A stretch of DNA of 64,000 nucleotides from Candidatus Rokuibacteriota bacterium (GTDB lineage Bacteria > Methylomirabilota > Methylomirabilia > Rokubacteriales > CSP1-6), in assembly GCA_003220435.1 (NCBI GenBank), contig QHSL01000071.1, positions 1 to 64,000 on the forward strand, read 5' to 3'. Shown one piece after another: positions 35,484 through 37,566 of this stretch. A program made the position numbers and the translations under genes. Each line of letters starts with the position of its first letter. The first letter of the stretch is position 1. Below the pieces are notes generated by a model, which was given only the letters and a program-made list of their open reading frames with translations, did not search any database and was not told the origin of the DNA.

Positions 35484-35924
35484 CTAGATCTTGCCGAAGA
35501 TGTACTTCGACAGCAGCTCTTCGAAATCCACCGGGGCTTCGACTTCGCGGATCTTGCCGTTGGGGCCGATGATCTTCTCGGACCCGCCCGGGCTGATGCG
35601 TACGTACCGCTCGCCGATGAGCCCCTTGGTCTTGATCGACGCGATCGAATCCTCCTGGAGCTTGACGCCGGACTGCAGCCGGACCGTGACCCGCGCCTGA
35701 TAGTCGACCAGGCCGATTTTCTCGACCCGCCCGATCTCGACGCCCGCGATCTCCACGCTGGAGCCGGCCTTCAACCCCCCGACCGACGGGAAGTCGACGG
35801 TGACCACGTAGCCCCGGCCGCCCAGGAACGACACCCGGCCGAGCTGGACCGAAAGATACCCCATCGCCAGGATGCCAAGGAAGACGAAGATCCCCACCGC
35901 GATGTTCACGCGCGTGCGCTCCAT
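35484..35924 (-). CDS. mlaD: MlaD-family inner-membrane lipid-binding protein
   Basis: A 146-residue protein with one N-terminal membrane helix (about 8-27) and a single MCE domain: VTVDFPSVGGLKAGSSVEIAG, VGRVEKIG-type strand, DSIASIKTKGLIGERYV and a closing amphipathic VDFEELLSKYIFG. MlaD forms a hexameric ring on the MlaFE transporter through which lipid passes. I placed the start at ATG 35924 (MERTRVNIAVG), the usual family start, with GGAGGGAGAC upstream. It lies 16 bp after mlaF. Confidence 0.9.
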   Translation of the reverse strand: MERTRVNIAVGIFVFLGILAMGYLSVQLGRVSFLGGRGYVVTVDFPSVGGLKAGSSVEIAGVEIGRVEKIGLVDYQARVTVRLQSGVKLQEDSIASIKTKGLIGERYVRISPGGSEKIIGPNGKIREVEAPVDFEELLSKYIFGKI

Positions 35925-35940
35925 CAGTCTCCCTCCGCCA

Positions 35941-36684
35941 TCAGTGTCCCTCCGAATTGTCGGGCTCGCCACGGATGAACTGGCGCACGACCCGGTTGGC
36001 CGAGGCCTGGATCGCCGCCGGCGGCCCCACCTCCACGATGCGACCCTCGTGCAGCATGGCCACCGTGTCGGCGATCTCGAAGATCTCGGGGATCTCGTGG
36101 CTCACCATGAGCGCGGTGAACCGGAACCGGCGATGGAGATCGAGAATCAGATGATGGATGGTGTTGACGAGCACCGGGTCGAGGCCCGTCGTCGGCTCGT
36201 CGAAGAAGATGATCTCCGGCTCGGTCACCAGCGCCCGCGCGATCGCCACGCGCTTGCGCATGCCGCCGGAAATCTCGGCCGGGAACTTCGCGCCCACGCC
36301 CTCGAGCCCCACCTGGCCCAGCGCGGCCTCGACGCGCTTGGCGATCTCGTCGGTCGGCATCCGGAGCTTCTCGCGGAGCGGGAACGCGACGTTGTCGGCG
36401 CAGGACATCGAGTCGAACAGCGCCCCGCCCTGGAACACGACGCCGTAGCGCCGCCGAATCCCGTCGAGCGCGCGCCCCGTCAGGTGCGTGATCTCGACAC
36501 CGTCCACGAGGACGCGGCCGGCGTCCGGGCGCAAGAGGCCGATGAGGTGCTTGAGGAAGACCGACTTGCCGCCGCCGCTGCGGCCGATGATGACCGTGAT
36601 CGAGCCGGTGGCCACCTCGAGGTCGAGGTCGCGCAGCACCGGCTGCCGGCCGAACGACTTCCGCAGGCCTTCGACTTTGATCAC
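35941..36684 (-). CDS. mlaF: MlaF-family ABC ATPase of the lipid transporter
   Basis: A 247-residue ATPase. Walker A is GRSGGGKS (34-41), the Q-loop is GVVFQGGALFDSM, the signature is ISGGMRKRVAIARAL, and Walker B is IIFFDEPTTGLDP, all as in MlaF. It powers MlaE. The start is GTG 36684, which overlaps the stop of a preceding minigene as GTGA; GAGGCGAGCCT gives a ribosome site inside that minigene. A TTG at 36762 would add 26 residues in frame, but that extension is just the translated 44-bp repeat and is unlikely. Confidence 0.88.
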   Translation of the reverse strand: MIKVEGLRKSFGRQPVLRDLDLEVATGSITVIIGRSGGGKSVFLKHLIGLLRPDAGRVLVDGVEITHLTGRALDGIRRRYGVVFQGGALFDSMSCADNVAFPLREKLRMPTDEIAKRVEAALGQVGLEGVGAKFPAEISGGMRKRVAIARALVTEPEIIFFDEPTTGLDPVLVNTIHHLILDLHRRFRFTALMVSHEIPEIFEIADTVAMLHEGRIVEVGPPAAIQASANRVVRQFIRGEPDNSEGH

Positions 36685-36768
36685 AGGCTCGCCTCGCCTC
36701 CGGCTGCGGCTCGCACAACCATCATCACAGGCTCGCCTCGCCTCCGGCTGCGGCTCGCACAACCATCA
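36681..36768. repeat. Perfect tandem duplication of a 44-bp unit between mlaE and mlaF
   Basis: Positions 36681-36724 and 36725-36768 are identical over all 44 bases, and the next four bases begin a third copy. On the coding (minus) strand each unit carries a ribosome site (GGAGGCGAGGCGAGCC) and an open frame reading (M)MVVRAAAGGEASL then TGA. The first minigene's stop overlaps the second's start (TGATG), and the second's stop overlaps the mlaF GTG. The whole mlaE-mlaF gap consists of this repeat. Expression of the minigenes is not shown. Confidence 0.9.
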
Positions 36769-36771
36769 TCA

Positions 36772-37566
36772 CTAGGGGAGGATCGAGCCCATGAAGTAGT
36801 CCCAGACGAGGATCAGCACCGACGAGAGGACGACCGCCTGGGTCGTCGCGCGCGCCACTCCCTCGGCGCCGTGGCCCACGTTGAAGCCCTTGTACGTGCA
36901 GACCCACGTCACGACGACGCCGAACGAGACGGACTTCCAGAACCCGGTCATGATGTCCTTCATATCCACGAACGTCTGCATCTCGCCGAAGTACGTGCCC
37001 GGCGAGAGGCCGAGCAGCTCGACCCCCACCAGGTACCCGCCGAAGATCCCGACGACGTCGAAGATCGCGGTCATCAGCGGGAACGTCACCAGGCCGGCCA
37101 GGATCGAAGGCGCGACCAGGTAGCGCATCGGGTTCAGCGCCATGACGGTCAGCGCGTCGATCTGCTCGGTGATGCGCATGATGCCGATCTCGGCGGTGAG
37201 CGCCGAGCCCGCGCGGCCGGTGACCATGAGCGCGGCCAGCACCGGGCCGAGCTCGCGGATCAACGACAGCGCGACGGCTGGCCCCAGGAACGCCTCGGAG
37301 CCGAACCGGACGAGCGTCAGGTAGACCTGCAGCCCAAGCACCATCCCGGTGAACGCGCCGGTGAGGAGGATGATCAGGAGCGATCGGTAGCCGATGTAGT
37401 TGATGCGATCGACGAACGCGCGGACTTTGAACGGCGGCGTCGCGATCGCGATCAGCGCTTCGACGAAGAAGGTCCCGAACCGGCCGAGCGAATCGACGGC
37501 AGAGATGGTCCAGCCACCGACGGCGTCGAACGGGCGCAGCGCCGGTGAGAGCGACCGATCAGCCAT
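36772..37566 (-). CDS. mlaE: MlaE-family lipid ABC transporter permease
   Basis: A 264-residue membrane permease of the MlaE family with five or six helices: YIGYRSLLIILLTGAFTG, then the conserved SLIRELGPVLAALMVTGRAG and EIGIMRITEQIDALTVM segments, and late helices near VVVTWVCTYKGF. It is the inner-membrane core of the MlaFEDB lipid transporter. Its start ATG 37566 overlaps the end of the squalene-hopene cyclase gene by 8 nt, so cyclase and transporter are made together. Confidence 0.92.
   Translation of the reverse strand: MADRSLSPALRPFDAVGGWTISAVDSLGRFGTFFVEALIAIATPPFKVRAFVDRINYIGYRSLLIILLTGAFTGMVLGLQVYLTLVRFGSEAFLGPAVALSLIRELGPVLAALMVTGRAGSALTAEIGIMRITEQIDALTVMALNPMRYLVAPSILAGLVTFPLMTAIFDVVGIFGGYLVGVELLGLSPGTYFGEMQTFVDMKDIMTGFWKSVSFGVVVTWVCTYKGFNVGHGAEGVARATTQAVVLSSVLILVWDYFMGSILP

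Follow-up and report, generated by a model that had tools for sequence, protein, structure and literature searches.

The mlaE-mlaF junction

The gap between the mlaE and mlaF genes of a Candidatus Rokuibacteriota genome (contig QHSL01000071.1, assembly GCA_003220435.1) raises the question of why a spacer between two operon genes should consist of an exactly repeated minigene, and whether this arrangement is particular to the locus. In the window, by which we mean the whole 64,000-nucleotide stretch of DNA analysed, genes for MlaE and an ABC ATPase are followed by those for MlaD and MlaC (Pfam). The gap on the minus strand is made up of two letter-identical 44-mers (36768-36725 and 36724-36681), and TRF reports a period of 44 bp with 2.1 copies and a 100% match at 36680-36772. 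The preliminary description, which had the gap filled by two identical 44-bp units, is thus accurate to the letter in both the TRF result and the sequence.

The mlaE stop codon is TAG (36774-36772, minus strand) and the mlaF start codon is GTG (36684-36682, minus strand). Both units encode the same 14-codon open reading frame, MMVVRAAAGGEASL and a stop, and the chain is interlocked throughout: TAGTGATG lies just past mlaE, GTGATG joins the first minigene to the second, and GTGA leads into mlaF. Each unit also contains GAGG 7 nt upstream of the next start. GAGG matches the standard anti-Shine-Dalgarno sequence, and the Shine-Dalgarno call rests on that standard because no 16S gene was found in this assembly. 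The features are as follows.

36772..37566, minus strand: mlaE (permease), the upstream gene; Pfam PF02405, E 2.4e-80
36725..36769, minus strand: minigene 1, translated as MMVVRAAAGGEASL and a stop; starts right past the mlaE stop (TAGTGATG), and its TGA overlaps the minigene 2 start (GTGATG)
36725..36768, minus strand: unit A, 44 bp, on the mlaE side; TRF and core match
36732..36758, minus strand: conserved core of unit A; core match
36736..36739, minus strand: GAGG of unit A, Shine-Dalgarno-like and 7 nt upstream of the minigene 2 GTG
36681..36725, minus strand: minigene 2, translated as MMVVRAAAGGEASL and a stop; its TGA overlaps the mlaF start codon (GTGA)
36681..36724, minus strand: unit B, 44 bp, on the mlaF side; identical to unit A and holding the core GCGAGCCGCAGCCGGAGGCGAGGCGAG
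36688..36714, minus strand: conserved core of unit B; core match; small predicted hairpin, GCC-GGA-GGC inside GCC/GGC (fold z -0.72)
36692..36695, minus strand: GAGG of unit B, Shine-Dalgarno-like and 7 nt upstream of the mlaF GTG
35941..36684, minus strand: mlaF (ABC ATPase), the downstream gene, with a GTG start; Pfam PF00005, E 3.9e-31; the start, GTGATCAAAGTC, is homologous in relatives

A dispersed repeat of Rokubacteriales

The core is not a chance match, because dinucleotide shuffles of the window give an expected count of 0. A sequence search of the whole genome returned about 20 matches to the region, most of them on other contigs, and a pattern search allowing up to 3 mismatches in the core, the basis of all copy counts here, found 20 copies; the reversed control pattern found 0. 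Some relatives carry up to about 70 copies by pattern. Matches by sequence occur in 29 of 59 relatives, and 42 of the 57 genomes of the same family have the core by pattern. Within the phylum the core is restricted to this family, apart from a single match in another family of the order, and pattern searches found it in 0 of 35 genomes from other orders of the class. A scan of public genomes recovered at least 80 loci and, among the matches listed, all are from Rokubacteria metagenome-assembled genomes.

The junctions that carry the element are functionally unrelated and include hisB-hisH, a carboxyltransferase-mutase pair and ispD, among others. The 44-bp unit is therefore one of a family of dispersed, mobile-looking repeats in Rokubacteriales (Methylomirabilota), a group of uncultured soil bacteria, and the earlier picture of a local tandem duplication peculiar to mlaF does not hold. 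Our search of the literature, which was not exhaustive, turned up no description of such repeats in Rokubacteria. Carriage by phages or viruses was considered and rejected, since the 2.9 million viral contigs searched contained 0 exact matches to the core.

We propose that the two units are tandem copies of a mobile-looking Rokubacteriales repeat that occupies overlapping stop and start codons (RTGA) and acts as a portable, MIRU-like coupling minigene. On the sequence patterns described below, we put the probability of this reading at about 0.8.

Filled and empty junctions

MlaE orthologues were located in 54 of the 57 family genomes and their mlaE-mlaF junctions were read. Many genomes have a bare 4-nt overlap, CC-GTGA-TC. 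In others, one unit (G034, G003), two (G000, the genome studied here), three (G025) or four or more (G013) lie between two RTGA motifs. Variation in copy number, which the preliminary description had only anticipated, is thus real, with 0, 1, 2, 3 and 4+ units at the same junction among relatives, and the minigene frame at this junction is kept in relatives. The G013 array (L199, L030) is interrupted by a run of N and holds at least four units. The same mla gene pair is present without the element in 41 of the 54 relatives, so the element is dispensable for the mla operon.

The hisB-hisH junction behaves similarly. The gap is -4 in G005, G009, G013, G034, G078 and others, exactly +40 in seven genomes, which equals one 44-bp unit, 84 in both G000 and its sister G003, and 192 in G011. 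On a tree built from MlaE, MlaF and HisB, the two junctions require at least 7 and 8 changes of state, and the sister pairs G005/G006, G020/G078 and G025/G062 (support 0.87-1.0) differ in element state. Some empty junctions, for example in G005, could be precise losses by slippage between direct repeats. Across 141 arrays, array size ranges from 1 to 7 units, with the variation seen between species.

Short-form elements are also found nested inside the loop of the long form (G032:C22:2515-2578, G032:C124:17139-17232 and L089), as if one element had inserted into the other. Presence and absence between sisters, the unrelated junctions and this nesting all point to mobility, so far as genome comparison can indicate it. 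Mobilization of the REP/RAYT kind was rejected as a candidate, since the main carriers (G000, all of genus g1, G011, G032 and G025) have no Y1/RAYT transposase gene (PF01797).

Coupling architecture across the family

The 141 arrays were analysed with gene calls from a codon-position GC heuristic as distinct from curated annotation. Where the flanking genes are co-directional, 98 arrays are in the sense orientation and 5 in the antisense orientation (83 and 5 if the aberrant g9 type is left out). The start of the next gene is exactly 3 nt past the core in 62 arrays, and 59 of these 62 starts read NTGA; the minigene TGA therefore overlaps the downstream start. About 45% of the other arrays are without an exact +3 start, as called by the gene-finding heuristic. 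On the upstream side, the stop of the preceding gene mostly ends at -10, -7, -13 or -1 relative to the core. This distance equals 2 mod 3 for 38 of 54 (p 4e-8, a value that overstates independence because the copies are kin by descent), and 44 of 54 have an in-frame start codon at that stop. Tandem repeat periods (44, 41, 50 bp and so on) are likewise 2 mod 3 in 27 of 34, again among copies related by descent.

In 64 of 75 distinct element sequences the frame meets no stop before the TGA within the next start, and it survives length changes of +6, +15, +18, +21 and +24 nt. The encoded peptide varies while the frame persists (RAAAGGEASL, RAAGRRGAGAPPSEASL and RSRSTARSRRRSVCEASL are among the variants), for which reason a conserved functional peptide was rejected. 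The same combination makes a peptide-based version of the translation-sensing leader suggested for this locus unlikely. In G069, of genus g10, the element arms are mostly read in another frame, yet the frame runs open as far as the overlapping TGA at 14 of 14 examined sites. Inspection by eye shows that several of these sites (L343-L348, L363) have ATG or GTG 6-8 nt past a TANNNT box, and this genus apparently uses the element as a standard leaderless first-cistron minigene. A sigma-70 scan of one site found no full promoter.

Taken as architecture, coupling by minigenes with their own Shine-Dalgarno-like sites is well supported: the arrangement at mlaE-mlaF (TAGTGATG, GTGATG and GTGA, with GAGG at 7 nt) agrees with that seen over the family. 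Coupling is not universal for the core sequence, because the g9-type genomes carry the core inside 60-bp repeats of which 1 of 29 is start-coupled. In GWC2_70_16/GWA2_70_23-like genomes (L046, L057, L078, L080, L086), 60-bp repeats that hold the core, mostly not start-coupled, have CGAGC-GNA/GNRA-GCGAG hairpins. The core is also found there within a larger intergenic element that contains GTACGTTGAGCGC and is mostly not start-coupled.

Hairpin structure

Longer versions of the element exchange the inner GCC-GNA-GGC for other hairpins. In an alignment of 30 long-form sequences, a 15-pair hairpin has 94.7% of cells paired and 48 double-change cells, compared with 13.4 in shuffled alignments. Covariation is 0.336 versus 0.101 for shuffled alignments and at most 0.069 for slid controls, RNAalifold agrees with the hairpin, and the inner stem exchanges GC/CG/AT and AT/GC/CG/TA pairs. 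Such compensatory changes show selection on the hairpin, or copying through it, whether as RNA or as single-stranded DNA. The short 44-bp form has a small hairpin of the same plan, the stability of which does not exceed that of shuffled sequence (z -0.72). Since single-unit RNA folds are mostly not significant alone, the structural claim rests on the covariation of the long form. A known RNA family was rejected as an identity for the element, with 0 Rfam matches at the gathering score in five loci that represent the short, long and g9-type forms. The genome studied here also has long-form elements with GC-rich hairpins at gene starts (L351-L355; contigs C104, C17, C32, C118 and C135), and the long-form period in C104 is 65 bp.

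Proposed mechanism and alternatives

We suggest that ribosomes finishing mlaE would re-initiate on the first minigene, open its hairpin and end at the RTGA, from where they would re-initiate first on the following minigene and lastly on mlaF. In this way the two genes would stay coupled despite the insertion, with coupling handed on along the chain of units, and unit number may shift when the direct repeats slip or recombine unequally. We favour the interpretation that the element is tolerated because coupling is preserved, with occasional use as a leader in genus g10.

The alternative that survives best, although we consider it improbable, is a purely selfish, REP-like structured repeat whose frame and coupling merely filter the insertions that persist, with the minigene never or rarely translated. 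The patchy distribution, the nested short-in-long copies (such as G032:C22:2515), the covarying hairpin and the non-coupled relatives in g9-type genomes would all fit such a repeat. However, the frame is kept over many length variants and in two different reading frames, the Shine-Dalgarno spacing and NTGA position are fixed, and no RAYT/Y1 transposase occurs in the main carriers. Moreover, a filter on frame implies that ribosomes traverse the insert, which argues against an untranslated repeat.

Less probable still is that the array is an adaptive tuning module kept at this junction by selection, where unit number would determine the MlaE:MlaF ratio or the leader would respond to translation. 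The minigenes are coupled and have their own Shine-Dalgarno-like sites, their copy number differs among species, and the G069 element is the first cistron past -10-like boxes. For M. tuberculosis, a correlation is reported between the length of the MIRU-VNTR tract upstream of fpg1 and the mRNA level, which was higher with longer tracts (PMC2734929). On the other hand, 41 of 54 relatives manage with the mla gene pair alone, the element appears and disappears between sister species, and it occupies functionally unrelated junctions with a peptide that is not conserved. The units may tune the MlaE:MlaF ratio, but our proposal of a tolerated coupling minigene accounts for the sequence data without such tuning.

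Duplication of a single unit during assembly deserves mention in view of a fragmented assembly (147 contigs) and the identity of the units, but multi-unit arrays of the same architecture recur in independent assemblies, including the 84-nt hisB-hisH gap in both G000 and G003. That other species carry 1 to 4+ units at this junction makes a pure artefact very unlikely. A simple local tandem duplication of the mlaE-mlaF junction, like the 17-bp one next door at mlaF-mlaD (35921-35954), is contradicted as the origin of the unit, and is the least credible of these readings, by the presence of the unit at many other junctions and genomes and of single units at the same junction in relatives, although duplication still accounts for the increase from one unit to two.

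Comparison with MIRUs and other short repeats

Until now, the layout in which a mini-gene links a stop to a start has been known from mycobacteria, in their MIRU repeats. Typing of tuberculosis has long relied on MIRUs, whose spread and effects on expression are unsettled. One review (PMC12548453) describes mycobacterial interspersed repetitive units, after Supply et al. (1997), as mobile open reading frames coupled at -4 spacing. They are 40-100 bp long, occur at 41 loci and vary in copy number, and MIRU-VNTR length correlates with fpg1 mRNA in M. tuberculosis (PMC2734929); at senX3-regX3 there are three identical 77-bp units (PMC4213456).

Both kinds of element are short, intergenic, dispersed and mobile-looking, and both insert at gene start codons, leaving filled and nearly bare junctions in different species. 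Both have a frame coupled downstream at -4 spacing (NTGA; here in 59 of 62 canonical starts, including hisB-hisH and mlaE-mlaF), and both form tandem arrays of variable copy number, which in our case is 1 to 7 units between species. They differ in host phylum and in unit length (44 bp, also 41, 50 and 65 bp, versus 53-77 bp for the MIRU units in the example). The Rokubacterial element also has a covarying inner hairpin, and one genus uses it, in addition, as an apparently leaderless first cistron. We therefore call the Rokubacterial element MIRU-like rather than a MIRU, the likeness being one of architecture as opposed to sequence alignment.

Other systems share some of these features. The ORF-11 and ORF-17 frames at attI1 of class 1 integrons are short, have their own Shine-Dalgarno sequence and boost the downstream gene by coupling with a peptide that matters little, but they are a fixed part of a recombination site, one per integron, and form no dispersed family at NTGA junctions (PMC8876359). 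In bicistronic designs and natural leader frames, a short frame brings ribosomes to a nearby start and can remove structure, but these are engineered or single-locus and belong to no insertion-type repeat family (PMC12548453, PMC4833913). REP/RAYT palindromes are also short, dispersed hairpin repeats, whereas the Rokubacterial element sits at coupled starts in sense orientation and its main carriers are without a RAYT (Y1) gene. The enterobacterial RU-1, RU-2 and RU-3 elements are small mobile repeats with open frames, but they are 103-168 bp long and MITE-like, with frames fused into proteins and no coupled stop-start minigenes (PMC2759123).

The duplication at mlaE-mlaF is thus real and the finding more general than first stated. 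We consider the chances about even that the element represents an independent, non-homologous family of mobile coupling minigenes in a second phylum: hairpin-bearing, targeting overlapping stop-start codons, recreating coupled overlaps on both sides, spreading through operons of whole genera and serving as a leaderless first cistron in one genus. If so, elements of the MIRU type would no longer be a peculiarity of mycobacteria but would form a general category, either of genome parasites or of expression modules. With a second family that follows MIRU insertion logic in an unrelated phylum, the filled and empty orthologous junctions over a family of 24 genera would be natural replicates, allowing a comparative reading of insertion boundaries, target rule, frame filter and copy-number effect. 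As a naturally occurring analogue of engineered bicistronic leaders, the element could also provide a ready collection of parts for reporters.

The unrelated 17-bp tandem duplication at the mlaF-mlaD junction (35921-35954, minus strand) creates a second coupled minigene, MAEGD and a stop (35941-35924), between TGATG and TGATG. Many other relatives have a bare TGATG at this junction. In the sister genome G003 the 17-bp duplication is present, with both the start and the stop of its minigene mutated.
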